Source: a virus. Taken from it: 27,519 bases of DNA. How positions within the stretch are numbered: position 1 is the first letter of the stretch; each line of letters begins with the position of its first letter. Below, one piece after another: positions 8,110-27,462 of this stretch. The DNA lies in the IMG/VR virus record IMGVR_UViG_3300027728_000070, positions 1 to 27,519 of that record; one strand, written 5' to 3'. The translations under genes and the position numbers were made by a program. The notes beneath the pieces were generated by a model. The model was given only the letters and a program-made list of their open reading frames with translations. It was not told the DNA's origin and searched no databases.

Positions 8110-9786
8110 TTAGCGTTCCGGGTTCCAGTTGCTACGTGGGGCAGCGGCTTCGACTTCAAGCAACTGATTGCCCATCTTCTGAAAGCGCTTCCCCGGTTGC
8201 CCGATAGATGCACCATCAACCTCAGAGCCGTCTTGCATGGCGCGTATTTTTTCACGCAACGAACTCTGAGGCGCAAATTGTTGCTTTAGCCCGTCCTGGA
8301 GCTTTTGGATTTGTGCATCGCCGTCCTGTGGATTGAGCTTCCCACTCAACACACCTTGGGCAATCCGGCCCTTTTGGACTGAGTAGTCCCCAATAGAGCG
8401 GATTTGCTTGATGATCCCATTGCGGCCTTCCACTGTTTGTGAAAGAGACGGTAGGCTTTGGAACATGACTTCCAAATCCTTGTCAGACGTTGCGCCCGCG
8501 CCTTGCTGGCGGAGTCCAGGAGCCATCTTGTTGACGATGGACTGGAACATCTGCGCTTCATGCAATCCCTTTGGCTCCAGCCCCATCGACTGCAACCATG
8601 GGCCAACAGTAGGCATCATCGCCGCCATTTTTCCGGAACCAACAACGTCGGAAAGCTGCTGCAGACGATCAACGTCGTTCAGCATTGAAACGGCTGAGTT
8701 TCCGTCCTTGGCGTGGCCTTGATAGATTTCAGCGTTTTGTTTTGCGGCTGCTTTCTGAAACTCCTTGGCTTGGTCGCTTTCAACGCCTTCCGGCAATTTG
8801 CCCGTCAGAACGTAAGCTTGATACTGTCCGGTTCCAGGCTTAAGCCCGAACCGCTCTGCATCCCTTGCTCGCTGCTCTGTCTCGTTGTTTTGGAGCTCAA
8901 TCTTCGCCATTTCCAGTGCGTTGACTTTGGACGAAAGCCCGTTCAACAGCGCAACGCCTTGCTTACGGGTGCCTGGGTTTTTGATCAGACCTTGCGTGGC
9001 CTGCATCTGGCTTTGGATGGTGGCAATCTGCTTGTCGTACATGGCCAAGCGCGGGTCAGCATTTGGCTGGGCTTGCGCTTGCGGCTGTGCGGGCTGAGTT
9101 TCTGGCTGTGGAGCGGCGTTCGCGGTTGCGCCTGTCATCGACCGCATCTGCTCATCGGACGGCTGTGCGGGCTGCTCTGGTGCCATTCCTTGCGCCGGGG
9201 CCTGCAACGGCTTGGGCATAGTAGGGCCAGCCGCAAGAAGGCTACCCCTAGCAATCGCCAGGGCACCCGCATCACCGTCGCGCGTTGGGTCGCTCGCACC
9301 GGGAATACCCTTGGCGACGTTGCCACCCGCAGCGTTGGCTAATTCACCGCCAGAGATAGCAGGACCAGCGCTCATCTGTGGCGCTGGCGTGTAACCGTTG
9401 TTTGGGCCTGATGCCAACATGCTGGTTGATTTCGGCTGTGCGCCCGGTGATGGCGACCCCTGATTGCCACCACCCGTCAACGCTTGGGTGTAGTTGTCCC
9501 ATGCGGCTGCGTCAGCCGACTTTTGACCTTGCAGAGCCTTAAGGTATTCACCATGCCATGCGGCCTCATTGATTTTCTCACCGATGTACGTCAGCCCTTC
9601 GCCCACGTTGCGGGGCGCACCCGAGCCCTTCGGCTTGGCTTGGCTCAGTGCAAACTGCGTATATTCTGGTCCAGCCGTTGTCGGGTCAGCCGCTTGCACT
9701 TGATCAATGGGGCTTTGCTGCGATAGAATTTTTGGCAGCTTGGCAATTGCTGGAAGCTGAAAAAATGGCGTCTGTTGCTGTGCCAT
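8110..9786 (-). CDS. Internal virion protein with a conserved podophage core domain
   Basis: The ATG at 9786 (558 residues, MAQQQTPFF) is preferred: GGGGG lies 9 bases upstream and the previous stop is at 9791-9793. A TTG at 9801 would overlap that gene. Residues 185-245 are a Pro/Gln/Ala-rich linker and 250-310 a coiled coil. Residues 405-460 carry LHEAQMFQSIVNKMAPGLR, then QQGAGATSDKDLEVMFQSLP and SLSQTVEGRNGI. I recognise this pattern from internal or tail-associated proteins of alphaproteobacterial podophages, where a Ser-Asp after GAG.. and the SLPSLSQT..G box recur. It has no enzyme motif. It is likely a structural or ejection protein of the virion interior; the exact role is unknown. 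Confidence 0.7.
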   Translation of the reverse strand: MAQQQTPFFQLPAIAKLPKILSQQSPIDQVQAADPTTAGPEYTQFALSQAKPKGSGAPRNVGEGLTYIGEKINEAAWHGEYLKALQGQKSADAAAWDNYTQALTGGGNQGSPSPGAQPKSTSMLASGPNNGYTPAPQMSAGPAISGGELANAAGGNVAKGIPGASDPTRDGDAGALAIARGSLLAAGPTMPKPLQAPAQGMAPEQPAQPSDEQMRSMTGATANAAPQPETQPAQPQAQAQPNADPRLAMYDKQIATIQSQMQATQGLIKNPGTRKQGVALLNGLSSKVNALEMAKIELQNNETEQRARDAERFGLKPGTGQYQAYVLTGKLPEGVESDQAKEFQKAAAKQNAEIYQGHAKDGNSAVSMLNDVDRLQQLSDVVGSGKMAAMMPTVGPWLQSMGLEPKGLHEAQMFQSIVNKMAPGLRQQGAGATSDKDLEVMFQSLPSLSQTVEGRNGIIKQIRSIGDYSVQKGRIAQGVLSGKLNPQDGDAQIQKLQDGLKQQFAPQSSLREKIRAMQDGSEVDGASIGQPGKRFQKMGNQLLEVEAAAPRSNWNPER

Positions 9787-11859: not shown

Positions 11860-13164
11860 TCAATGGGGGCCGTTTACCGCAGCATAATCAACCGCAAGGA
11901 ACCCGTTCGGCATAAGCGCAACAGCCTCAGGCATGACCCGTGCCAACTCTTGCGCCATGACCCCAACCCGGCGAACAGATGGCGCATCCCAGACATACCG
12001 CCAAGCGTACCAGCCAAAGCCACGCGCATCGTCCAACAGATGAACAATGTCAGCCTTCAAGCGCCGGTCGCTCATCATCATCGGAAGCGAAATCAGGTTC
12101 CCCGCCAAGCCCATCAGCCCGCCCATCATCGACTGTTGCTGCTGAACCTTCGTTTGCCACTTCTGCATGTCCATTTCAGCGGAGCGGTAAACACTTTCGG
12201 CAACCGGCGTCTGAGCGATGGTGCCAGCTTTAAACGGCTGGAACTGCGGAACCTGAATTTGACCACCATGCACAAGCGCACCGATCTCGTTCATCGGCTG
12301 TGTGCGCTCAACAATCAGTTCCTGCAACTGCTGTTGCCGTAGCGTGTTGACGTAGTTCGCGGCCTCGACAAGAACCGAAAGCTGCTGAACCTGTGCCATA
12401 TTGCGGAACTGGAATATCAGCACTTGGCGTTGAAATTTCTTGTCTGAAACCCCGTTCGCAAACTCGCCTTTCATGCCCTCAAGTTGTACAATCCGGGTCT
12501 GCTCTTGCTGGGCAACCAAGAACGCTTGCAGCCGCGCATCGTTGTTCTTGCGGTCGATTGCCAGCATGGCCCGGTCATAGGCGACCATGCCGGGGAAAAG
12601 CCCTTGGTTTGCAAGAGACGCCACAGCCGCATCGTGGTCAATCGTGTACTGGTATTCTAGCCGCTCCAGGATCGCATCGCGCGTCGCCGTGATGTGTGCC
12701 GTCAGGTCAGCCGCACCAATCGTCTCAACGGGGAACGTCCCGGCATCAGGCCCGGTCAGGTTCAGCGTTGGCGCAACAGGCGAAGCCCTGTGAGCCGGAA
12801 GCGAAGCCAAAGACAACCGCTGCGTCACGAGGTCGTTCAGCGTCCGAATTTGCTGTAGCGCGTACTCGTTGGACTCCAGCGAAATATCCAATTGCTTGTC
12901 GAAGCTGTCTTGAGCTTTCGGGACAAGCGAAGTCGTCTTCTTCCAACGCTTAATATAGCGCGTGCCGGTGATGGCACCGTTCGCATCGTATGTGTTAGTC
13001 GCATAATCCCCTGGCATCTGCTCGAAGGTAACGCCGCCGTCTGGGCGCACCTCGTCAGCGTTTGACAGAACAGTGTTCGCGAACGCGACCTCAACATTTG
13101 CCATTTGTTGCGCAGCAGCAGTCTTATAAGGGTCAGGTGTTGGTGGAGGTGATGGGGCTTTGAT
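11860..13164 (-). CDS. Virion protein with C-terminal peptidase S74 chaperone domain; probable AUC start
   Basis: The first ATG (13104) gives 414 residues but has no ribosome site. The frame stays open for 20 more codons, to an ATC at 13164 placed 5 bases after a perfect AGGAGG, and an in-frame TAG precedes that. The added residues (KAPSPPPTPDPYKTAAAQQ) look like the usual N-terminus of this phage family (a Pro-rich, DPYKTA..QQ opening before ANVE.A.ANT). The middle is helical and Gln-rich. The last 73 residues form an S74 domain (SDRRLKADI ... RVGVMAQELARVMPEAV ... GFLAVDY). Ser345 and Lys350 (ATG numbering) have the 5-residue spacing of the endosialidase self-cleavage dyad Ser911/Lys916. 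S74 domains fold trimers and cut themselves off. It lies between two opposite-strand cargo genes. Confidence 0.75.
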   Translation of the reverse strand: MKAPSPPPTPDPYKTAAAQQMANVEVAFANTVLSNADEVRPDGGVTFEQMPGDYATNTYDANGAITGTRYIKRWKKTTSLVPKAQDSFDKQLDISLESNEYALQQIRTLNDLVTQRLSLASLPAHRASPVAPTLNLTGPDAGTFPVETIGAADLTAHITATRDAILERLEYQYTIDHDAAVASLANQGLFPGMVAYDRAMLAIDRKNNDARLQAFLVAQQEQTRIVQLEGMKGEFANGVSDKKFQRQVLIFQFRNMAQVQQLSVLVEAANYVNTLRQQQLQELIVERTQPMNEIGALVHGGQIQVPQFQPFKAGTIAQTPVAESVYRSAEMDMQKWQTKVQQQQSMMGGLMGLAGNLISLPMMMSDRRLKADIVHLLDDARGFGWYAWRYVWDAPSVRRVGVMAQELARVMPEAVALMPNGFLAVDYAAVNGPH

Positions 13165-13296: not shown

Positions 13297-14190
13297 ATGG
13301 CAAAGCACTCACTCGAAATCCGCCGCCGCTTCTGGTCTAAGGTCAAGAAGAGCGGAGAACGCAACGGCTGCTGGGAATGGCAAGCAGCCAAGGGAACAAA
13401 CGGCTACGGCGCTTTTTCTCTGAACGGAAAGCCTATGATTGCAAGCCGGGTTGCCTATGAAATCGCTCATGGCATTGGATCAATTGGGATGCTCAACGTC
13501 TGCCACAAATGCGACCGCCCTGGCTGTGTGAGGCCAAGGCATCTGTTTTTGGGAACTCACAAGGACAACCTTGCGGACGCGGCGAACAAGGACCGGATGC
13601 CATACGGGGATAACGGACCAGCGGCACGTCACACATCAGAGACAATTGAGGCTATCAAACTAGATCGTGCTGCGCTTATGACGTACCGCGCGATTGGCAA
13701 GAAGTACGGGCTGCACGAGAAGTGCGTATCCGAAATCCTTCGTGGTAAGATGCGTGTCCGTGAGTACGATCCTGCAAACAAGAAGCTTGTCGAACTTGTC
13801 ACGATGGGCCGTCGCAGCATCACACAGGCTCAAGCCGATGCTGTTTTGAGAGGACTGGCGCTAGGACTTACTCCCACGCGGCTTTCAATCACGTTGCAAG
13901 TGCCGCTTGGGATTATCTCAAAAATCCGCCACGGTAAGGCGTGGGTGCATCGACTTGGCGTTGATGGGCTTCCAACGATGGACGTTCTTGACCGCGTACA
14001 GGGCAAAGCTCCAAACTCAAAGCCGAACACCGATCCTGAAATTGTTCGGCAGATCGAGGCCGCTATTTTGGCAGGTGAAAAGCAACAAGTGATCGCAGAC
14101 AGGTTCGGGTTAGCTCAGACTGGCGTTTCGTACATAAAAAAACGTCTGCTTTCCCGTTCTACTCCCCCGCCGCTTGCAGCGCCGCGATAA
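13297..14190 (+). CDS. HNH homing endonuclease with three helix-turn-helix units
   Basis: A 297-residue protein with a clear ribosome site (AAAAGG, 8 bases before the ATG). Residues 25-100 form an HNH_3-type nuclease: CWEW (25-28), a RVAYEIAHG helix, VCHKCDRPGCVRPRHLFLGT (68-87) with zinc-type Cys and the catalytic His area, then HKDNLADA (88-95). Three HTH-like units follow at about 113-152 (YRAIGKKYGLHEKCVSEILRG), 173-216 (ending ISKIRHGKAWV) and 247-283 (QVIADRFGLAQTGVSYIKKRL). They probably read the target site. Such genes copy themselves into intron- or gene-less alleles by cutting them. It is convergent with the metallopeptidase gene and overlaps its end by 32 bases, so the last residues are encoded on both strands. 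Confidence 0.9.
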   Translation: MAKHSLEIRRRFWSKVKKSGERNGCWEWQAAKGTNGYGAFSLNGKPMIASRVAYEIAHGIGSIGMLNVCHKCDRPGCVRPRHLFLGTHKDNLADAANKDRMPYGDNGPAARHTSETIEAIKLDRAALMTYRAIGKKYGLHEKCVSEILRGKMRVREYDPANKKLVELVTMGRRSITQAQADAVLRGLALGLTPTRLSITLQVPLGIISKIRHGKAWVHRLGVDGLPTMDVLDRVQGKAPNSKPNTDPEIVRQIEAAILAGEKQQVIADRFGLAQTGVSYIKKRLLSRSTPPPLAAPR

Positions 14191-15928
14191 GCGCTGCTCT
14201 CTTGCTTTGGTCTTGGGTTAGGCCAGCCATGGGAGCGGCTGTGGCGGGGTTGCCGTTTAGCTGCAAATGCTGTGACATTTCTGGATGGTCGTTAACGATC
14301 CTACGCAATTCTTTAGCCAGCACCGGAGACGTAGTTTTTATATAATTGGGGTTCGTCAAATATGCGCGGAACGCCTCAGCCATGATTTCGCTAGGTGCTT
14401 CTGACGGCGGATACCCAAAATCTTCAGGAGTAGCATGACCATGGCGCGGGAAATCCGTGCCTGCGCTTAGCTCATGGTAAACCTCTGATGCCCCTCTTGA
14501 CCCCGATGGGCTAATCGGGGCATTGCCGGTCATGTCATCAATATGATGGCCAAGCTCATGCGGGATGACGAGATTTCTCTCGCTATCGGTTAGCGTATCA
14601 AGATGGCGAATCTGGCGCTTCGCTACACCTCCAGAATCAAACGTTAGGGCTGATCCAACAGCGCCTGGTCGTCCAGGGTCAACGCGGCCCTCTGGTGCGG
14701 AATGAGATTGTATCCCAAGTCTTCCAAGTAATCCGCTGATGTCATCTGGGGATAGAGGTTCGTTTGCGCCGCCGAAAGTGCGTCTTCCTGCGACGTATGG
14801 GGCCGTGAGTGGCCTCCCATCAATGTCATGCGTAAGGATGCTTCCTCGCGCGCCTTCAAGTGCGTTTTTGTAGTCGTCACTGAAAGGTCTTTCTCTTAAC
14901 CGTATTGGTGCGAAGCCAACTTCATGCTTGTTCTTTATATTAACATTTTTAGGATGTTGCGTCAATTGGCTTGGTCCATCCGGAACCGCCCCCGTGCTCA
15001 TCTGCGGGCCGCCATGTTCGCTGGTTAATGCGCCGAACACGCCGACAGTGGATTTGTCGCCGGGGTTGGTGAATAGATCGTTGTCGCTAAACCTGACAGA
15101 CGGATCATCCAGCAATCGCGCATCATTGAACGACCGTGACTGAACCTCAACCGGGCGCGGCAACTCCATGTTGTTGGCCGATGTGCTCCTGACATTCTCT
15201 GTGCGCCGTAGTTCTGTTTCCGCGTTGTAATCTGCCATCGTTTTGCGGTAGAGCGCACTGATCTCATCAGGTCCAGCGGCGTATGGAATACCCAGCCCCG
15301 AGTTATCACCGTACGCGTCGTTAAAACGCGCTAGCTCTGGGTGATCTGCATAGGCTCCAAACGTCGTGAATGGCCGGGTCGGCGGCATTGGCTCTGACGT
15401 TACGCCCTTGTGTAAATTCAGGAGCCACTGCCCAAAAACAGCGGGGTCCTTTGAATTGCTGTTCATGATAGCAACGCCGTACTGGTCGCGAAGCTTTTCA
15501 ATCAACGGCTCAGCCGCGTCTATGATCTGCCGATTTGTTGCGCCGCGCAAAATTGCATCGCGAATTGGCTGCTCGATTGCTGTCGCCGGGTCATTCTTGG
15601 CGTTGGCTGCAATGCGTTTGGTAAGGTCAAAAGGCTCCACGCTCATCTGTGGGCCGTTGCCGCCGTGCGTGAGTTTGCCCCCCGCCATCCCGACACTTTC
15701 CCCACCGCGCACACCAGCCGACAACAGCCCGCCCATCGGCAGCGTGCCCGCAACGTTGAGCGTATCAGGGAGCGCATTGTATCCGCCAAGCTCGCCATCG
15801 CGCGGAGCGTGTGCCGTAGCAGGCGTGCCGGTGATGCCATAGCCCGTCGTCGCCTGATGCAGCCGATCCGCAGCGCCGTACACCTCCTGCGGCATACGCA
15901 GCAGGCCCGCCATCGTGTTGTGAGCCAT
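14159..15928 (-). CDS. Virion-module protein with HEXXH zinc metallopeptidase motif
   Basis: From its first ATG this is 589 residues, but the frame is open back to a TAG at 16010 and continues in the same frame into the 78-codon gene 16010-16246; the true protein may be a fusion of about 695 residues. No good ribosome site precedes 15928. The N-terminal third is Gly-rich and low complexity. GPQMS occurs twice (92-96, 307-311). The C-terminal part has IPHELGHHIDDMTG, with H457-E458-x-x-H461 as zinc ligands and catalytic Glu, then SEIMAEAFRAYLTNP with E514 or E518 as a likely third ligand, as in gluzincin-type peptidases. The substrate is unknown; it could process virion proteins or open the host envelope. 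Codon use after about residue 190 is more AT-rich than in its neighbours. Confidence 0.75.
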   Translation of the reverse strand: MAHNTMAGLLRMPQEVYGAADRLHQATTGYGITGTPATAHAPRDGELGGYNALPDTLNVAGTLPMGGLLSAGVRGGESVGMAGGKLTHGGNGPQMSVEPFDLTKRIAANAKNDPATAIEQPIRDAILRGATNRQIIDAAEPLIEKLRDQYGVAIMNSNSKDPAVFGQWLLNLHKGVTSEPMPPTRPFTTFGAYADHPELARFNDAYGDNSGLGIPYAAGPDEISALYRKTMADYNAETELRRTENVRSTSANNMELPRPVEVQSRSFNDARLLDDPSVRFSDNDLFTNPGDKSTVGVFGALTSEHGGPQMSTGAVPDGPSQLTQHPKNVNIKNKHEVGFAPIRLRERPFSDDYKNALEGARGSILTHDIDGRPLTAPYVAGRRTFGGANEPLSPDDISGLLGRLGIQSHSAPEGRVDPGRPGAVGSALTFDSGGVAKRQIRHLDTLTDSERNLVIPHELGHHIDDMTGNAPISPSGSRGASEVYHELSAGTDFPRHGHATPEDFGYPPSEAPSEIMAEAFRAYLTNPNYIKTTSPVLAKELRRIVNDHPEMSQHLQLNGNPATAAPMAGLTQDQSKRAALIAALQAAGE

Positions 15929-16012
15929 GCCGCCAAGGCTCGGGCTGTTGCGCTGTTCGTCGCCAGCCTCCGGATTGAGGCCCGTTGCGCCTAAAATGCC
16001 CTTTTGTGCCTA
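15929..16012 (-). other. In-frame amber codon and open frame joining two ORFs
   Basis: The minus-strand frame of the ORF starting at 16246 meets TAG at 16012-16010. It then runs open through 27 codons (AQKGILGATGLNPEAGDEQR, then NSPSLGG) straight into the ATG at 15928. The starts 16246 and 15928 are 318 bases, exactly 106 codons, apart. The linking residues look like normal coding sequence. This points to readthrough, a recent nonsense mutation, or a sequence error. Confidence 0.8.
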
Positions 16013-16246
16013 CGTGAACAAGCCCGTGTCGTTGCCAACCGGCGTCGTGAGATTTGACCACGCCTGCGGTATCCCGCCACCCGGTTTTGGGCCGTTGGCT
16101 TGGTTGCCCTGATACTGGCGTTCAAACGCATCAGGTTCCAGCGCCTGAACAACGCCGGGGTACGTTGGCTTTGTTTTCTGCGCGGGTTGCCCGAACGTCG
16201 GCTCTTGCCCGTTCAAAACACCGGCTATGGCGCGATAATCGGCCAT
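16010..16246 (-). CDS. Short virion-module ORF, probable N-terminal part of the metallopeptidase protein
   Basis: This 78-residue ORF starts right after the GNAT stop (TAAATG), with AGGAAG upstream as ribosome site. It is Pro/Gln/Gly-rich (MADYRAIAGVLNGQ ... GGGIPQAWSNLTTPVGNDTG), the kind of disordered N-terminal region that opens the other large ejection proteins here. It ends at TAG, beyond which the same frame continues into 14159-15928. By itself it matches no family I know. The strong start signals here and the weak ones at 15928 suggest that this is where translation of the whole protein begins. Confidence 0.6.
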   Translation of the reverse strand: MADYRAIAGVLNGQEPTFGQPAQKTKPTYPGVVQALEPDAFERQYQGNQANGPKPGGGIPQAWSNLTTPVGNDTGLFT

Positions 16247-16762
16247 TTATGCCGCTTCCTGCTTCCAGAGTGGGCACGTCTCTGGATAGAGGCCGAACAC
16301 CCCCACATCACCGCCACCCGCTGCCATAAAGCGCTTACGGCCTTCGAGTTGGAACCCGAGCTTCTGCGCGCTGCGGACCGACCGCTCGTTGCTCATTTCG
16401 ATCTCTGCCGTGATCCGGCGAACTTTGAGCTGTCCGAATGGATAATCGAGAACCTTGCGAAGCGTCGTCGGATGGGCCGATGCGATGTTATCGACGGCAA
16501 CGCAGACGTGAATGTCTGAAACGTCGTTCTCTTTCTGCCAGTTGTAGAAGTAGCAGCCTGCGAGAATGTCGAGTTGGCCGTCTTGCTTGCGGAAGTTCTC
16601 AGGGGCTTGCTCTTTGAGGATGCCAAACCCCACGAACAGCGTTGGCACGATACCGCCGCCCATGCGCTCGTTGACCCACACAGCAATTTCAGCGTCCATG
16701 CCGTAGAGAACACCGTCGATAACGGCGGGTTGTGGTTTGGCTGGTGAGGTGTCTTCGCTCAA
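16247..16762 (-). CDS. GNAT-family N-acetyltransferase
   Basis: I place the start at a TTG (16762) that overlaps the previous stop as TTGA and has AGGGAG 7 bases upstream; this gives 171 residues. A longer reading from 16897 would overlap the upstream gene and has no ribosome site. The C-terminal half shows GNAT features: a strand FGQLKVRRITAEIEM followed by SNERSVRSAQKLGFQLEGRKRF, the usual helix that carries acetyl-CoA contacts and the late LGF..EG box. It should move an acetyl group from acetyl-CoA to an amine; the substrate is unknown. GNAT genes of this type recur in the structural operons of podophages and siphophages, which suggests a virion or host-protein target. It ends base to base with the next start. 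Confidence 0.75.
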   Translation of the reverse strand: MSEDTSPAKPQPAVIDGVLYGMDAEIAVWVNERMGGGIVPTLFVGFGILKEQAPENFRKQDGQLDILAGCYFYNWQKENDVSDIHVCVAVDNIASAHPTTLRKVLDYPFGQLKVRRITAEIEMSNERSVRSAQKLGFQLEGRKRFMAAGGGDVGVFGLYPETCPLWKQEAA

Positions 16763-17067
16763 GGCTGCGCTCCCTTTCGTTCTTTCAACATGCGCGGGGT
16801 TACGCCGTAAATTTCGCGCTGACGGGCTTCGACTTCCATCGGGTGCATGCCGTAGCCATACCAGCACAGCAAGCCGAGATATTTGAGTGTGAACCAAACC
16901 GGGCCGAGCCGCTTAATCTGGTCAAGGTGTTCGCGCTCGTGGACGTGAACGCTTTCGTCGTCAAAATAATCTGGTAGTATGTACGCAACGCCCCAAGGCA
17001 TCGCGATGCCAACCCCACCAAGCGACTTGAGCACCCAAGACCAAAACGGTCCCGCCTTCACGATCAA
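16759..17067 (-). CDS. Small protein with HExxH metallopeptidase-like motif
   Basis: The likely start is a TTG at 17067, overlapping the previous stop as TTGA with GGGAGG 6 bases upstream (102 residues); the longer reading from 17181 overlaps the tail-hub gene. A hydrophobic stretch (about 8-28, WSWVLKSLGGVGIAMPWGVA) could touch a membrane. Then comes VHVHEREHLDQIKRLG, with H-E-x-x-H plus Gln, followed by FTLKYLGLLCWYGYGMHPMEVEARQ. That order (HE..H..Q, a Tyr/Trp-rich helix, then HP.EVEA with a late Glu) is shared by a group of small HExxH proteins found in bacteria and phages. Protease activity is unproven and the substrate unknown. It is coupled to the GNAT gene downstream. Confidence 0.65.
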   Translation of the reverse strand: MIVKAGPFWSWVLKSLGGVGIAMPWGVAYILPDYFDDESVHVHEREHLDQIKRLGPVWFTLKYLGLLCWYGYGMHPMEVEARQREIYGVTPRMLKERKGAQP

Positions 17068-18605
17068 AGCGGGCCTCCCTTTTGGAACATGATGTCTGTG
17101 CCGGTGTAGATGACCGGGCAGTTTGCAGCGACCGCGAGCAACAGCGAAAAGTTTTGCCCGCTTCCCGTCATCGACCGCCATTGGCGCTGTGCTGGCGTGC
17201 TTTCACGTTCCCAGTCTGCGGGCTGCATCGGCCATGAGATTTCATCCCAGTACCAATGCCGGTTAGCAATCCAGCGGGCGGCAACGTCGGTTGATGTTGC
17301 GCGGTAGTCCGAAATGAGCCGCGTATAGGCCCGGTAAGGCTGGGGTGCCGTCATCTGGAGCCGCCCACGGGTTGCGAACTTTCGGTTTGCAGAGCCGAGC
17401 TTGTTGTAGGCGTGGGCAACAACACCACGAACCGGAACCTCTGTGTCGTTTTCAGCGTCGTAGTCGGTGTTTCCGGTGTACTTCACCACCGTGCCATCGT
17501 TCATGCCGAAAAACAGCCCGTCCGTCGTTTGGGCAACGCTTGTCGCGTCGATCCCGGTAAATTCCGACCATGCGTTGTTGCACAACACGAGTTGCCGCGC
17601 TGGTTGGTTGCCACGGGTGCAGTTGATGACCATGAGGCCAGCGCCTAGAACGTCAACACCTTCCCAGATTTCGCCAGTGGCACGGGATGCGACCGCATCA
17701 AACCAAGCCTGATAGATCGGCGTTGTATGGGCTGCGATCACCTTCTTTGCATCGGGATTGGGCAAGCCGCCCGGAACGTCAATCAGACCATCAACCGTCA
17801 TGAGGCCAAGGCTTCCACCCATTTGAATGAATGGTTTTGCCCCTACAAGCTTCGGAACCGACCACGTTCCAACGTGCTGCCACGTTTGCGCATTGTCAGG
17901 ATCGTTACCGGCATAAATGACAACCTCACCATTCGCAGAAACCGCAACAAGCTGGTCTTGGGCGTCTTTTGAGGCATCCCCGCTAATTGCTGCGATGGCA
18001 ACGAGGTTGCCGCCCTTGGTCAAGTGCGGGGCAAAGAAGATAGGTGCAGCCTTACCCTGGACTGACTTAGGCGGCAGATACCAGACCGTTGCCGTTTCGC
18101 GCTCGATTGCGAACAACCGGCGCACATGATGCAACGGACAAATCAGGTTGCGGCCATCGACGCCGGTAATATCGCAACCACGCCATGTCGCGCCATCATA
18201 CCAATGGGCGCTATCGAGTGGGGATGAGTTCATGACGACAAGGCGAGGCCCGCCATCGTTCGCTAGCGTCACGCCCTGCCAATCGTCGGCGTGCATGCTG
18301 AACAGCGGCGCGGCGGGAAAGTCGGTCGCCGTCGAAACGTCAAGAAGCGAGCCGCCATAGCCTGCAAACAACTTCGACCCGAACGGGATCAGCGATTTGA
18401 TCGCACCGCCGATGCCAGTAACATGTTTGGCCAGACCGTCGCGCAAATGCAGACCATCAGGCCGCACAATCCAGTTTTGCAGCCGTAGGGCGCTGTCTGG
18501 TGGCATTCCAGTAATCGGCGCGTTCGTGACCCACCCCTTGACGGGAAACGGGATCGTGCGCTGATCCGCTTGGGTGATCGTGGCGCTTTTCGACACCGGC
18601 AACAT
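17064..18605 (-). CDS. Tail hub/nozzle-like beta-propeller protein
   Basis: The start used is the ATG at 18605, which overlaps the preceding stop as TGATG (513 residues); a GTG 12 bases earlier is also possible. The opening (FPVKGWVTNAPITGMPPDSAL, then QNWIVRPDGLHLRDG) matches the N-terminal pattern of a tail-stub protein common in podophages of Alphaproteobacteria, where a GGW..... MP...A..LDNW..... LR.G box leads a run of beta-propeller blades. The rest is beta-rich with repeated strand-turn units (for example LFAGYGGSLLDVS, LVVMNSSPL, LLMTVDG-type). By size and place after the adaptor gene it is likely the equivalent of the P22 gp10 or T7 gp12 tail component. The structural match is inferred, not proven. 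Confidence 0.65.
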   Translation of the reverse strand: MLPVSKSATITQADQRTIPFPVKGWVTNAPITGMPPDSALRLQNWIVRPDGLHLRDGLAKHVTGIGGAIKSLIPFGSKLFAGYGGSLLDVSTATDFPAAPLFSMHADDWQGVTLANDGGPRLVVMNSSPLDSAHWYDGATWRGCDITGVDGRNLICPLHHVRRLFAIERETATVWYLPPKSVQGKAAPIFFAPHLTKGGNLVAIAAISGDASKDAQDQLVAVSANGEVVIYAGNDPDNAQTWQHVGTWSVPKLVGAKPFIQMGGSLGLMTVDGLIDVPGGLPNPDAKKVIAAHTTPIYQAWFDAVASRATGEIWEGVDVLGAGLMVINCTRGNQPARQLVLCNNAWSEFTGIDATSVAQTTDGLFFGMNDGTVVKYTGNTDYDAENDTEVPVRGVVAHAYNKLGSANRKFATRGRLQMTAPQPYRAYTRLISDYRATSTDVAARWIANRHWYWDEISWPMQPADWERESTPAQRQWRSMTGSGQNFSLLLAVAANCPVIYTGTDIMFQKGGPL

Positions 18606-19291
18606 CAGAACTGCCACCCTGTAACGGTTGGAAGTGGCGGCTCAAGCATTGCCGGTACGTCCATCGACCGAACCACATGACCGCCGTTGTCCATTTTGAT
18701 GGCGTCGGCAATCGTGTGCTGGAACAGTTGGAATTCAGCCGCGCTATCGAGGCGTTCCGTCTCCCGCATCGCCCACGCAAGGCCACGAAGCATCAGATCG
18801 TCGTCAAAAATCGGCGTGTCGCTATCCGCTGTAAACGCCATGATCTTGGCACCGGCTGCGTTGGTGCCGACGTTCTTCGTCACGTACTCAAAAGAGACGA
18901 GCGGCGCATAGGTAGGCGCAAATCGCATCACCTTGCCGGTGAGGTAGTATCGCCACAAGCCAATCCCTGGATAGCGCAGCATTTGCGTGTGTTGGGATGG
19001 CGAAACAGGCACCAGCAACCGGCGCGCGTTCACATCGTAGATCGTATCAGGCACCAGCCGCTTGAAGTCGGCAGGCATGGGAAGCGGAACACCTGCCGAT
19101 GCCTGCAACTGCACGCGCTCTTTGAGCACGCCCCATGCATAAGCACCGGCAAGGTGATTGATGACCTTAGTGAAGGCAACACGAAACTTAATATCGGTCG
19201 TGTCGCCTTCGTTGTGCGAACCAAACAGCGTGACAGGCCGGGTTAGGGCTAATTCGTCAGAGATTTGGCGCGCAAGGTCGAGAATGTTCAC
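18605..19291 (-). CDS. Head-tail adaptor / tail tubular protein A-like
   Basis: A 228-residue protein starting at a GTG overlapping the previous stop (GTGA). An N-terminal helix (MNILDLARQISDELALTRP) leads to a segment with strand and turn signals (residues 60-150). The C-terminal part has FTADSDTPIFDDDLMLRGLA, then a WAMRETERLDSAAEFQLFQ helix and a Asp/Gly end. That D.P.F...L...L.W..R...G.D.A..F...... ending is typical for the head-tail connector proteins of podophages. It should bind below the portal and hold the tail hub encoded next. Assignment rests on pattern and gene order. Confidence 0.6.
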   Translation of the reverse strand: MNILDLARQISDELALTRPVTLFGSHNEGDTTDIKFRVAFTKVINHLAGAYAWGVLKERVQLQASAGVPLPMPADFKRLVPDTIYDVNARRLLVPVSPSQHTQMLRYPGIGLWRYYLTGKVMRFAPTYAPLVSFEYVTKNVGTNAAGAKIMAFTADSDTPIFDDDLMLRGLAWAMRETERLDSAAEFQLFQHTIADAIKMDNGGHVVRSMDVPAMLEPPLPTVTGWQF

Positions 19292-20310: not shown

Positions 20311-21273
20311 TTATGCCGCGTCGAGCAGCAGGCAGTTGGTACGGCGCGAAGTCGTGAGCTGTTGGCCCGCCCACAGGAACGGGATCACAATCCCATCCGC
20401 GTTGACTGGCGTCTTGTAGGGCTGCTTTTTCCACTTGAGCTCGGAAAGCTCGCACAGTTCCCAATTCTTGGTCGTGAGCATGTAGGCACGCTCAGCAGCG
20501 CCAGCGAAGTTGACGTTCACATCGTGGATCACGTCAGCGCCTTTGTAGGCCACGTTCTCCTGAGCGCCGTCCGCCTTTTGACTGTCCATGTAGCGAATTT
20601 GCTGCTGGATGGTGTCTTCGTAGGCGTTGTAAACGTCGTTCGACGCCACGATCAGATCGGGCGAAGTCGCGTTGTAGGAGGCCAGCAAGAACGCCTTGTT
20701 GAACTCCTTGCGGATATTGGCCTGCCAAGCGTCAGTACCTGACATTTCGAGGTACTTGTTCTGCCAGTTGGTGTAGAGGGCAGAGTTGATGCCTCCGACC
20801 GTTCCCGCGCCGTTTGCCTGAATCCAAGCCTGCAGACCCATCATGCCATCAACCACGGTGCCATCCGAATAGACTTCGGCAGACATGTGGTTGGCAATCG
20901 AGGCTTCGCCCGCCGTGATCTTGGCGTCCACCAGCGAGTAAGCCTTTTCATGCCCCTTATTCTGGCGCATTTCGTCACCGGAGATGATGACGTACATGTA
21001 TTTTTTCGACCAATCGACGTTGAGGTTCGAGAAGTTCTCGCCTTCGTCAATGTTGTGTGCGCCAAGGCCCGAATAGTTCCCGACCGTGGTGTTCGGCATC
21101 AGGATCACGGGGCGTTCAAAGCGCGATCCGCCCGATACGTCCTCAGTGATCCGCTTCTTTTTCTTGAAGTGGTTGTATAGGGCATTCATGCCCGTGATGT
21201 TGTCGGTTGGCGTGCCTTTGCGGTTCGCAAAAGTAGACGCCGTGACTTCATCGAATGCCTCGTTGATAGCCAT
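20311..21273 (-). CDS. Major capsid protein
   Basis: A 320-residue coat protein. The start (ATG 21273) has AGGAA at good spacing. The N-terminal part has the typical order: ANRKGTPTDNITGMNALYNHF, a Lys-rich patch, SGGSRFERPVILMPN, YSGLGAHNIDEGENFSNLNVDW, then YVIISGDEMRQNKGHEKAYS and a long spine-like helix to SAEVYSDGT. A VGGINSALYTNWQNK box follows, then the domain ending with LLLDAA. I recognise this pattern as the HK97-fold capsid family that is common in podophages and siphophages of Proteobacteria. The neighbours fit: scaffold just upstream (12-base gap), small head protein just downstream. No maturation protease gene is adjacent, so a separate scaffold is the likely assembly aid. Confidence 0.88.
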   Translation of the reverse strand: MAINEAFDEVTASTFANRKGTPTDNITGMNALYNHFKKKKRITEDVSGGSRFERPVILMPNTTVGNYSGLGAHNIDEGENFSNLNVDWSKKYMYVIISGDEMRQNKGHEKAYSLVDAKITAGEASIANHMSAEVYSDGTVVDGMMGLQAWIQANGAGTVGGINSALYTNWQNKYLEMSGTDAWQANIRKEFNKAFLLASYNATSPDLIVASNDVYNAYEDTIQQQIRYMDSQKADGAQENVAYKGADVIHDVNVNFAGAAERAYMLTTKNWELCELSELKWKKQPYKTPVNADGIVIPFLWAGQQLTTSRRTNCLLLDAA

Positions 21274-22663: not shown

Positions 22664-23239
22664 TTAAAGGCCCTTTCCGTCTGCAAATTTAAGTTGATGG
22701 AGCGGCACGCCGTTGAGCGTCATCGGCTTGAGCTTGGCGTCACGGGTCTTTTTCTCGCTATCGAGGTATGACTTCACGTTGTCGGAGGGCTTCAAGCCGC
22801 GCTTCTTGCAAAACGCATCGTTGGCGAACCCCTTCTCGCGTTTAGGGTTGACGCGCTCCCAAGAGATTTTGCCGGTCTTCTTGGCCTCTTCGCGCTGGTG
22901 GGAGCGTGAGCTAATCCACTTGCCGGATGGGTGCTGATGCTCGGGAACGTCCCGGATGATCATCGGGCACTTGATTTCTTCATGCTGGTCAATCTGGCGA
23001 CGGTAGCCGGTCGCGGCGTTGTAGTGGCCGGGTTCCTCAAAACTGGCGTCCGGCGATGGCTGGGGGAACCGCTTTGCAAAATGCTCCTTCGATCCTACCC
23101 AGACATATGACGGGGCCTCATCTCGCTTGCGTCCGTCCTTGTGATACCACCCAGAGCCTTGGAACTTCGCGCCGTAGATGCCTTCGAACCGGTTGCCGAA
23201 CGCGACGTGGTTCTCGATGCGGATACACCGTTCGGTCAA
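22664..23239 (-). CDS. Phage protein of unknown function next to portal
   Basis: A 191-residue basic protein whose TTG start (23239) overlaps the portal stop as TTGA, with GAGGTG 5 bases upstream. The centre has PMIIRDVPEHQHPSGKWISS followed by RSHQREEAKKTG. This resembles a box in small portal-adjacent phage proteins (P.I..D...Y.S..TG..I.SRS.HRE.LK..G), which often carry a zinc ribbon; none is visible here. The C-terminal part is Lys-rich (LDSEKKTRDAKLKPM). The function is not known. Gene order (portal, this gene, small protein, scaffold, capsid) is familiar in podophages. Confidence 0.6.
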   Translation of the reverse strand: MTERCIRIENHVAFGNRFEGIYGAKFQGSGWYHKDGRKRDEAPSYVWVGSKEHFAKRFPQPSPDASFEEPGHYNAATGYRRQIDQHEEIKCPMIIRDVPEHQHPSGKWISSRSHQREEAKKTGKISWERVNPKREKGFANDAFCKKRGLKPSDNVKSYLDSEKKTRDAKLKPMTLNGVPLHQLKFADGKGL

Positions 23240-25296
23240 TTCAGCACCTCTTCTAGCTGTGGCGGAAATGGCGAGCCTTGGACGTTGCCGACTTGCGAAC
23301 GGGCCTGTTGGCTCTTGAGCTGGGCAACTTCGATTGAAGCTTGAGCCTTGAACTTATCGGCGTCGGCCTTGACCTTCACGGCTTCGCTCTTGGCGCTTTC
23401 CGCATCGGCTGCTTTCTGCTCAGCCTGTTGCTGGGCAGGGTCGGGCTGCTGTGCCTGTTGAGCTTGCTGCGCCATCTGACGGGCGGCGTCGATCATGCCG
23501 TCTAGTGCATCCTCAGCATCCTTGCCGAGTTTCGCCTTGCGGCACATGCCGGTAAATACCGTGGTCAGTGCAGGCATGAACTGCGGGGCAATCGGAGCCG
23601 CTGTCATCATCGCTTGAAGCATCGCACCAGCCGAGTTCGTAAACTGGGCCATCTGGCCCAAGTCTCGCTTCACGTCGGCGGCAATCGTGCTGTCCGTCTC
23701 AATGTCGATGATGTAATCCAGCATTGGGGATCGCAGGATTTTCGCGACCTCGTCACCCTCTTGGAACTGAATGTTGGTCATTGCGACCAGCGTTGAAACT
23801 TGGAACTTGCTACTCAGAATGTCAGCCAGCTTGCGGATGATGTTGCGGATGAACATCTGTACTTGGGCTTGCTCACGCCGAACGCGCTGGCTTCCCCATG
23901 TCGCCTTGATGTCTTGAGCGCCTAGGGTTTCGTTCGGGTTCGTCGCACCGCGCAAAATGTCAGATATGCCGGTCTGCTCAAAAATGGTCTGTTTGATCGC
24001 TTCGCGGTGCTTATACAGCGCGTCAAGAACGGCAACGATCCGCTCAATCGGCCACCACATGACGGCTTTTTCAAAGTTGGCACCGCCACCCTTTAAGAAC
24101 TCGGACACGTCCTCAGCCGCGACGAACTCACCGTCTGACATATCCTTGAGGCGCGCGATGTCTGGCATTGCCGCGCCGTTCGCAACCCCTTTGACCTGCA
24201 ACTGATTGGTAAGGGCCGTGATGCGCTTGGTGACACGCTCAAGCTCTTGCATGAGCGGCTTGCAGATTTCATAGGGGCAAATCGGGACCAGTGAGCCGAC
24301 TTCTGATTGCTGGATCACTTCGCCGGGAAAGAAGTCCCGCAACTTTAGAGGATCAGGTTCAACCAACAGCGGCTGCGTCTTGTCTTGGTCCGAGATGAAG
24401 AAGCAAGACCGTGAAGCCTTGTCCCAAATCTCATAAACCTTGATCGTGTTGTAAACGCCGCGTGCTGGCTTGCCGTCCTTTGTTTCGGTGATGTCAGTCC
24501 GCTTGGTGCCAAACGAAAACTTCTTCATCCGCTCTTCAAGGGCAGCCTTGGGGTCTGCCACTGGCACCACTGGCGCATTCGGATCATGCGTTGCCGTTGC
24601 AATCGAGCGCTCAACAAGGCGCTGGACCTCTTCGCGCTTTAGATCGTGCTCGTATGCCTCAAACGGCATTGCCGACCACGTATTGGCGGGGCCGCGAATG
24701 TATCGGTTGTAAGGGACGTTCTCAGGGTAGCACTCTTCATGGACCAATGGCGCGAAATGCTCACCCGTTGTCGGGTCCGTCTGCATGTTCTGCTGATCGT
24801 GAAACGGCTGATAGCGAACGCGAACAGCGCCGCGACCTGGGGTCTTGTGGCTACGGACGGCCTCAAGCATGATGTCGTCAAACGCGATCATGTCGAGTGT
24901 CGCGGTCAACGCACGCTCAAGCACTTGAGCTGCGATGCGCGATGGTTGACGGTCGTTAACGGGTGCAGCGCCTGGAACTGGCTGTTGCGCCGGTTGCGCG
25001 CCATTTAGCGCGTTCATCCGGTCAAGTTCAGCCTCGTCTTGGAAACGGCGGCGAATGTCAACCTTGGGCGTAGCCGAATACAGCGCCGGAACAATCGTCT
25101 CGATATTCGAGAAGAAAATGTTGAACGCGGTTTTTTCTTTGCCGTTGTAAATCTTGACGGCCTTCTCAGCCGACGTGCGCCAATCCTTTTCCTCTTCGCG
25201 CGCAAGCTCAATCTTCGACAGCCACAGCTCAACCTGTGTCTTGCCGGTGCCGAGTGCTTGCTCGTCGCTATCGATAGAGGCGTAGTCGTGGCTCAA
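23236..25296 (-). CDS. Portal protein
   Basis: A 686-residue portal, larger than lambda-type portals and in the P22-like size range. The TTG start at 25296 follows AAGGA and the terminase stop (25301). The N-terminal part (KDWRTSAEKAVKIYNGKEKT ... FNIFFSNIETIVPALYSATPKVDI, about 38-87) is the familiar opening of podophage portals. Conserved-looking boxes continue (RVRYQPFHDQQ; VYEIWDKASRSCFFISD; FFPGEV; ERIVAVLDALYKHREAIKQT, FEQTGISDILRGATNPNETLG), the last of which is typical for the portal stem and clip area. The last 90 residues are Gln/Ala-rich and helical, the likely barrel inside the head. It forms the ring through which DNA is packaged by terminase and on which the adaptor sits. Confidence 0.88.
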   Translation of the reverse strand: MSHDYASIDSDEQALGTGKTQVELWLSKIELAREEEKDWRTSAEKAVKIYNGKEKTAFNIFFSNIETIVPALYSATPKVDIRRRFQDEAELDRMNALNGAQPAQQPVPGAAPVNDRQPSRIAAQVLERALTATLDMIAFDDIMLEAVRSHKTPGRGAVRVRYQPFHDQQNMQTDPTTGEHFAPLVHEECYPENVPYNRYIRGPANTWSAMPFEAYEHDLKREEVQRLVERSIATATHDPNAPVVPVADPKAALEERMKKFSFGTKRTDITETKDGKPARGVYNTIKVYEIWDKASRSCFFISDQDKTQPLLVEPDPLKLRDFFPGEVIQQSEVGSLVPICPYEICKPLMQELERVTKRITALTNQLQVKGVANGAAMPDIARLKDMSDGEFVAAEDVSEFLKGGGANFEKAVMWWPIERIVAVLDALYKHREAIKQTIFEQTGISDILRGATNPNETLGAQDIKATWGSQRVRREQAQVQMFIRNIIRKLADILSSKFQVSTLVAMTNIQFQEGDEVAKILRSPMLDYIIDIETDSTIAADVKRDLGQMAQFTNSAGAMLQAMMTAAPIAPQFMPALTTVFTGMCRKAKLGKDAEDALDGMIDAARQMAQQAQQAQQPDPAQQQAEQKAADAESAKSEAVKVKADADKFKAQASIEVAQLKSQQARSQVGNVQGSPFPPQLEEVLN
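24556..24575. repeat. 20-bp repeat, partner (inverted) at 19353-19372
   Basis: Exact reverse complement of 19353-19372. Here it lies in the portal gene, in the linker that reads APVVPVA on the minus strand, whereas the partner codes for Ala-Thr-Gly residues in another frame. Confidence 0.75.
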
Positions 25297-25300
25297 GCGC

Positions 25301-26725
25301 TCAGAGTTCCTTTAAGCGGCGTTGCATTTTGATGATTTGGTCGATGTCCATAGACGGAATGAGTGCGCCGCCGTGGCCGATCTCGAAGCCGTAGTCTCGG
25401 GCGGGTTTATTCACGACCTTGGGCACTTCGATCTTGATAGGGCAGTTGACCGCGAACTCACCAAAGCTGTCGGACGCGTGCGAGGCTTCATCGTGGATCG
25501 GCGTCGTGTAGGTTCCGAGCGCATCGTTGAACTTGCGGCGGAACCGGCGAAGGCGCTTTAAACCTGCCTGAACGCGCGGCGTATTGTGGAACCTCGTGAT
25601 TGGCAGCATCGAACGCACTGCCGGAATGCGGTTGTCGTTGCGGTCTGGCACGCCCTTAGCCAAGGGCTTCAAGCCGAGCGCATCCAAGATTTGGTGCCTA
25701 TGTCGCCCGCCCGCGCCTTGCTCACGAACGCGAACGTCGTGTGGAAGGAAGTGCTTTTCATAGCGGAACGGTTCTGTTCGCCCTAGGCGCTCCATAGCCA
25801 TTGGCTGTGACCAGCCGTCAAACTTATGCTCTAGCGGCGGCGGGATAAACTGCTCAGGCAGTGCATACCCAACCACATCATCAAAGCCGTCGCCGTTGGT
25901 TTCGTAGTAGTCGATGACGTTTACGTAGGTGCCGTCGTGCTGGAAGAACCAAACCGTCGTGTAGTCCGATATTCCTAAGTCCCAACTCGTAAAGACCTTG
26001 CGGCGCGGATCGTGCGGGAAGTGACCTATTCGGCCTTCCTTCTCCGCTTGGGCTAACAATCGAGCGTAGTAAGCGCCCTCAGAAACGATCTCATAGCCGC
26101 CGTTCCATACGTGTTCGGCCATCTCGGGATCAGCGGAAAAGTCGCGATCCATTTCGTCTTTGAGAACGCCAGGGAACCAAGGGTTATCGCGCCAATTGAT
26201 TTCGACGCAAACCGCATCCTTGGGCTTGTTCGCGCCTCGGAAGAACTCGTCTACCGGGTCCGTATCCCAACGAGGGTTCCAACTGCACCAAATCTCGGAT
26301 TCAGGCTTTCTGATCGTTGGGCGAAGTAACCGCCAACTGCGGGCCGATATGCTTTGCGCTTCCTCAACCCACGCAACGTCGAACCCTTCAAGCGACTTGA
26401 TGTTGTCCGCGTTATAATCCTGCATCCCTCGAAAGACCATCAGACCGCCGCGTGGGCCTCTGACTTCATCGCGAAGAACCTCAAACTTGGATTGAAGCCC
26501 TAGCTTGGCGATCTTACTTTCAACGAGCTGCTTAACCGAATCCTTAATGGAGTTCTGGACTTCGCGGATGCGAACAACGCGCTTGCCTTCGAAGGTCTTG
26601 AGAACGGCCTGCTCACCAAAGAAGTGAGACTTAGCCCCGCCTCGTCCACCATGTGCGCCCTTATAGCGAGCCGGGTACAAAAGCGGCTCTAACTTTTCGG
26701 GGACATCAACCCTGAGAACGGACAA
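25301..26725 (-). CDS. Terminase large subunit (packaging ATPase and nuclease)
   Basis: A 474-residue TerL of the PBSX/Terminase_3 kind. Walker A is GGRGGAKS (26-33), Walker B is FDVAWVEEA (115-123) with the catalytic Glu pair, and the coupling motif is SWNP (148-151). The nuclease acids of the RNase H-like domain are visible as SWDLGISD (D249), PHD (D329) and ASDSFGE (D419). It drives DNA into the head with ATP and cuts it. The start is a TTG at 26725, 20 bases inside the upstream gene and without a clear Shine-Dalgarno, but the following RVDVPEKLEPL is the usual TerL opening, so the start seems right. It works with the small-subunit-like gene upstream and the portal downstream. Confidence 0.93.
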   Translation of the reverse strand: MSVLRVDVPEKLEPLLYPARYKGAHGGRGGAKSHFFGEQAVLKTFEGKRVVRIREVQNSIKDSVKQLVESKIAKLGLQSKFEVLRDEVRGPRGGLMVFRGMQDYNADNIKSLEGFDVAWVEEAQSISARSWRLLRPTIRKPESEIWCSWNPRWDTDPVDEFFRGANKPKDAVCVEINWRDNPWFPGVLKDEMDRDFSADPEMAEHVWNGGYEIVSEGAYYARLLAQAEKEGRIGHFPHDPRRKVFTSWDLGISDYTTVWFFQHDGTYVNVIDYYETNGDGFDDVVGYALPEQFIPPPLEHKFDGWSQPMAMERLGRTEPFRYEKHFLPHDVRVREQGAGGRHRHQILDALGLKPLAKGVPDRNDNRIPAVRSMLPITRFHNTPRVQAGLKRLRRFRRKFNDALGTYTTPIHDEASHASDSFGEFAVNCPIKIEVPKVVNKPARDYGFEIGHGGALIPSMDIDQIIKMQRRLKEL

Positions 26726-27354: not shown

Positions 27355-27462
27355 CCGGCTTGCCGGTGAGGTCCGATTGATGGAATATTATTCCAGAGTG
27401 TGGGGTGCCAAGCCGTTATTTTTGGCACTTGGTGGAATGGTTTTCTACCGTTCGTGCGGTAG
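27355..27462. repeat. Cluster of four inverted repeats upstream of the packaging genes
   Basis: Four hairpin-forming repeats lie within 108 bases: CCGGC-TT-GCCGG (27355-27366); TGGAAT-ATT-ATTCCA (27381-27395); GTGCCAA-10 bases-TTGGCAC (27405-27428); and CTACCG-ttcgtg-CGGTAG (27445-27462), which overlaps the stop of the upstream gene. The gap 27332-27444 contains no gene. No T-tract follows any hairpin on the minus strand, so a simple terminator is not supported. Placement just ahead of the terminase genes would suit a packaging (pac/cos) or regulator site. Confidence 0.6.
27385..27411 (-). promoter_or_regulatory. Possible promoter for the packaging/head operon
   Basis: On the minus strand a -35-like TTGGCA (27411-27406, 5 of 6) is followed after 15 bases by a -10-like TAATAT (27390-27385, 4 of 6), leaving room for a short leader before the GTG at 27331. 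Spacing is short and the boxes overlap two of the inverted repeats, so it may be chance. Confidence 0.3.

Follow-up and report, generated by a model that had tools for sequence, protein, structure and literature searches.

A single in-frame TAG divides a frame of 695 codons, the TAG counted, in the 27,519-base virus record IMGVR_UViG_3300027728_000070 (the window, by which we mean the whole stretch of DNA analysed), which carries a podovirus structural module on its minus strand. This TAG is, in our assessment, probably a nonsense allele of a virion protein that is accessory and probably ejected, and of which some downstream product may still be made through leakage. The probabilities that we attach to this and to the competing readings are judgements and were not computed.

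In the preferred reading, the two ORFs on either side of the TAG would together form a single accessory gene in a podovirus similar to Mx8 and PhiGT1, and its 695-residue protein would combine an N-terminal region of unknown fold with a C-terminal zinc-peptidase-like domain. The TAG, found in at least two variants of the phage, would be a nonsense mutation at which ribosomes that start from 16246 would halt after 78 codons. The peptidase-like part would then be absent, or scarce if ribosomes leaked past the TAG at an ordinary rate or initiated at an internal ATG, for example 15895.

Table 1. Coordinates of the split frame and of neighbouring features in the window.
Feature	Position	Strand	Remarks
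Terminase	25301-26725	-	
Portal	23236-25296	-	
Major head protein	20311-21273	-	
Tail protein	18605-19291	-	
gp10-like protein	17064-18617	-	
GNAT acetyltransferase-like gene	16247-16762	-	upstream of split gene; start probably TTG 16762
5' segment, 78 codons	16013-16246	-	ATG 16246 directly after GNAT TAA (TAAATG); 0.29 bits/codon
In-frame TAG	16010-16012	-	same triplet in variant contig IMGVR_UViG_3300027970_000143
27 sense codons, TAG to next ATG	15929-16009	-	coding-like, same frame; no ATG/GTG/TTG
3' segment, 589 codons, TAG-ended	14159-15928	-	alternative internal start ATG 15895
Zincin-like C-terminal domain	14162-14923	-	HELGHHID; SEIMAEAFRAYL; homologues L170, L174
HNH endonuclease gene	13297-14190	+	convergent; overlaps 3' end of 589-codon ORF
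S74-type virion structural protein	11860-13104	-	directly after GNAT in annotated kin phages

Coding signal across the TAG

The initial annotation held that the two ORFs lie in one frame, with 106 codons between their starts, and that only one TAG (16012-16010), followed by 27 sense codons, separates them before ATG 15928. Both statements are confirmed by the coordinates on the minus strand, where the two starts are 318 bases apart. A stop-free run of 27 codons is by itself weak evidence, given that 36% of wrong-frame windows of this length are also free of stops. We scored the gap with a codon-usage model for which 15 other window genes supplied the training set and held-out, stop-free windows in wrong frames served as the null. 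The gap scores +11.2 bits in frame (12.3 bits with another background) and is negative in the five other frames. None of 1482 null windows scores as high, and the gap exceeds 84% of real 27-codon gene windows. Furthermore, when the 239 stops in the window that have 27 open codons on both sides are compared, the TAG of the split gene shows the strongest two-sided coding signal apart from the only two that surpass it (8112 and 16249), both of which are immediate TAA-ATG gene junctions. At these two junctions the motif TAAATG joins adjacent genes in the same frame, namely the GNAT gene and the 78-codon ORF at 16247-16249, and ORFs of 563 and 740 codons at 8110-8112.

Because the gap is coding-like in the frame of both ORFs, we conclude that these belong, or belonged until recently, to a single gene of 695 residues. 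The same signal points to a gap that is, or recently was, translated in this frame. From codon usage alone, we infer that the joined form is probably the ancestral one, and the stop would then represent a loss of function. Downstream of the TAG, 616 codons run on with no further stop or frameshift, and the HExxH motif and a downstream conserved glutamate are kept, so that either the lesion is very young or this part is still translated. The intact downstream frame is the only point against loss, and two very close variants cannot date the lesion. Taken together, the observations fit a nonsense mutation of recent origin in a gene that is dispensable.

The second of these variants is represented by contig IMGVR_UViG_3300027970_000143, which overlaps the window over 15.8 kb with 6 substitutions and one 9-base in-frame indel (blastn), and which carries the same TAG in a gene identical to that of the window. 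The indel that sets the two phage variants apart is located in the portal gene (window 24575; variant contig G1013), and the S74 protein accounts for two of the six substitutions, both nonsynonymous (12237, 12152).

Position and relatives of the split gene

The window shares the order TerL, portal, MCP, tail proteins, gp10-like, GNAT and S74 with podoviruses of the Mx8/PhiGT1/pCB2047 type, and its gp10-like and S74 proteins are homologous to theirs. For the gp10-like protein, identity to the counterparts in Mx8, PhiGT1, pCB2047 and Rhizobium phages is 22-32%. In the annotated kin phages, however, the interval between GNAT and S74 is empty, with S74 following straight after GNAT, whereas in the window this interval holds the split gene and the HNH gene. 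The absence of any gene from this interval in the kin phages makes the split gene look dispensable. Its place between GNAT and S74, within the structural module, is that expected of an ejection protein, and beyond it on the minus strand lie the S74-type gene and then large genes resembling internal virion proteins. This position, together with a comparison with a related prophage, suggests that the encoded protein is probably among those that the phage head contains and ejects along with its DNA. Elsewhere in the module, a 140-codon ORF (16759-17181, minus strand) overlaps the end of the gp10-like gene, carries an HExxH-like motif (HEREH) and matches phrog_37302, whose function is unknown.

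The C-terminal zincin-like domain comprises the last 250 residues of the joined frame and has two intact relatives, each encoded by an uninterrupted ORF. The first is a protein of 396 residues from a bacterial prophage that belongs to the same type of phage (L170:7248-8438; E 4e-34), and it has a lytic-enzyme-like internal protein on one side and a tail-fibre-like gene on the other. The second is a protein of 436 residues encoded on a viral contig beside the major head protein (L174:682-1992; E 2e-33). Both match the domain of the window with 36-38% identity over 228-257 residues and likewise reside in structural gene clusters, but they have shorter N-termini (about 125-195 residues before the domain) and occupy other positions in the module. 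HELGHH and SEIMAEA are conserved in three homologues, which thus display an HExxH motif and a downstream conserved glutamate. No curated peptidase family matches above its cut-off; Pfam Peptidase_M90 reaches E 0.0048-0.026, and Peptidase M78 reaches E 0.00025 in a homologue, below the curated cut-off. AlphaFold models were unusable, with a mean pLDDT of 38 for the joined frame and 41 for the domain.

The domain part of the gene (codons 301-589, window 14162-15028) scores about 0 bits per codon and has a GC3 of 0.48-0.49, compared with 0.23-0.30 bits per codon and a GC3 of 0.62-0.74 upstream of codon 301. Such atypical codon usage and GC3 look as they would after a recent acquisition. The domain family is small, is found in phages and prophages (alphaproteobacterial podoviruses and prophages), and has a modest interest of its own. 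A further five copies of the domain in genomes (L162, L168/L183, L161/L184, L182 and L186) are either truncated or broken by stops, and decay is therefore common among its relatives; these broken copies are chromosomal, and they are weak analogues for a free phage. The viral contig with the intact relative also encodes a protein (L174:6763-7494) whose hydrophobic N-terminus is like that of this relative but whose C-terminal end is PBECR1 nuclease-like (sub-threshold). Similar N-termini with different ends suggest that phage proteins of this kind may carry swappable C-terminal effector domains.

Apart from the near-identical contig, a search with the whole frame yielded relatives of the C-terminal domain only. 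Residues 1-430 had no relatives besides that contig among phages, plasmids, viral and genome contigs and about 1,840 genomes, where viral contigs were scanned by peptide or pattern and kin-phage loci were collected via the portal. Matches of the N-terminal part to L163 and L169 were rejected as spurious (a D-Ala-D-Ala carboxypeptidase-like ORF and a frame with three stops). The N-terminal part likewise has no convincing similarity to the N-termini of the two intact relatives or to other proteins of the window, so that the intact relatives do not align with the joined frame across the TAG. The sole relative that spans the TAG is the near-identical variant, and no divergent relative with a conserved stop was found. 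A search of Rfam returned no match, and we found no precedent in the literature that is specific to this case.

The TAG as a stop codon

The simplest view is that TAG acts as an ordinary stop codon in this phage. It terminates two other frames, the 589-codon ORF (14159) and a gene at 27447, and after these stops the coding score is -10.7 bits over the following 30 codons and +1.3 bits over the following 27, respectively. The 589-codon ORF ends about as far past the conserved domain as does its relative on the viral contig. The gene at 27447 is complete on the variant contig (L188:7860-8150), which backs the earlier proposal that TAG serves as its terminator. On the sense strand, only one in-frame TAG has coding sequence on both sides, and no second gene is interrupted in this way. 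No tRNA genes, suppressors included, are present in the 35.6 kb covered jointly by the window and the variant contig. With two frames that end at TAG without coding sequence beyond, and with a single interrupted gene, we rejected global recoding of TAG, and the initial view that full recoding is unlikely is borne out by these two frames and by the lack of tRNA genes in the 35.6 kb. Code-15 phages, for example crAss-like phages, read TAG as glutamine (PMC9523058, PMC11210395). The window resembles them in having an in-frame TAG, but here one gene only is affected, TAG ends other frames and no suppressor tRNA was found.

Competing readings

It is unlikely that the two ORFs are separate genes, one for a 78-residue protein and the other for a peptidase-like protein of 578-589 residues that begins at 15895, 15913 or 15928. 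The start sites bear directly on this arrangement. Where the initial annotation credited the first ORF with a good ribosome site and the second with none close by, ATG 15928 indeed lacks a site at a usable distance, but ATG 16246 has only a moderate Shine-Dalgarno match (-4.8 kcal/mol, gap 10) that resembles those of neighbouring genes, and the third in-frame ATG, at 15895, has a comparable one (-5.3 kcal/mol, gap 10). A plausible site at 15895 favours a separate gene, as do the short stretches before the domain in the intact relatives, which indicate that a protein with this domain does not have to include the 5' part. Nevertheless, 12% of internal ATGs in the window have a ribosome site as good as that of 15895, and the 27 coding-like codons upstream of 15928 would go untranslated if the genes were separate. 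These codons offer no start of the common kinds, and the sole other candidate in the gap, ATT 15997, is without a good ribosome site.

We regard as improbable a programmed readthrough of the amber codon, by which a fixed fraction of ribosomes would make the long form beside a 78-residue short form. A single stop that is kept in two variants, with coding-like flanks and an intact frame downstream, agrees with this reading. However, the predicted folding of the RNA beyond the TAG resembles that of shuffled sequence (z -0.15 and +0.19), and the sequence TAG GCA CAA has neither a CAR-YYA-type 3' context nor another known readthrough motif. Because a stimulatory structure or context is not strictly required, its absence lowers the probability of readthrough without excluding it. 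Divergent relatives with a conserved stop are also lacking, and the two variants are too close, given so few substitutions, to reveal selection. Qbeta-type stop-codon readthrough yields the A1 protein. The window is similar in that a probable structural gene has one in-frame stop with an open frame beyond it, but the stop is UGA there and UAG here, and readthrough at the window TAG is a candidate only. In E. coli strains free of suppressors, UAG and UAA are read through at low efficiency with insertion of glutamine (discussed in PMC8954436). That a tailed DNA phage would use controlled amber readthrough to produce mainly the 78-residue form, plus a few long copies that take a peptidase-like effector into the host, is a correspondingly slim prospect. 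The initial annotation had left the choice between readthrough and decay open; decay fits best, and readthrough finds no structure, motif, suppressor tRNA (in 35.6 kb) or divergent conserved stop on its side.

Conditional expression is also quite improbable. Here, an amber-suppressor tRNA of the host, or a suppressor encoded in an unsequenced part of the phage, would cause the TAG to be read as an amino acid. Three points would suit such an arrangement: the phage genome probably extends beyond the window and the variant contig, TAG rarely serves as a stop codon here (only two other frames were found to end with it), and a suppressor is encoded by about half of the phages that are predicted to use code 15 (PMC11210395). 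The same two TAG-ended frames, with no coding beyond them, count against it, as do the lack of tRNA genes in the 35.6 kb and the absence of any other gene interrupted by TAG.

Finally, a sequencing or assembly error, conceivable in a metagenome-derived contig, is very improbable and largely refuted, because a second assembled contig, which differs from the window at other positions and represents a distinguishable variant of the phage, has the same TAG.

If the TAG is a nonsense allele, as we favour, then the split gene exemplifies the ordinary loss of an accessory virion gene, and its main use is to caution those who annotate such genomes. Were a set fraction of ribosomes instead to read through the TAG, the gene would offer a rare tailed-phage example of the dosing of an ejected enzyme by amber readthrough.
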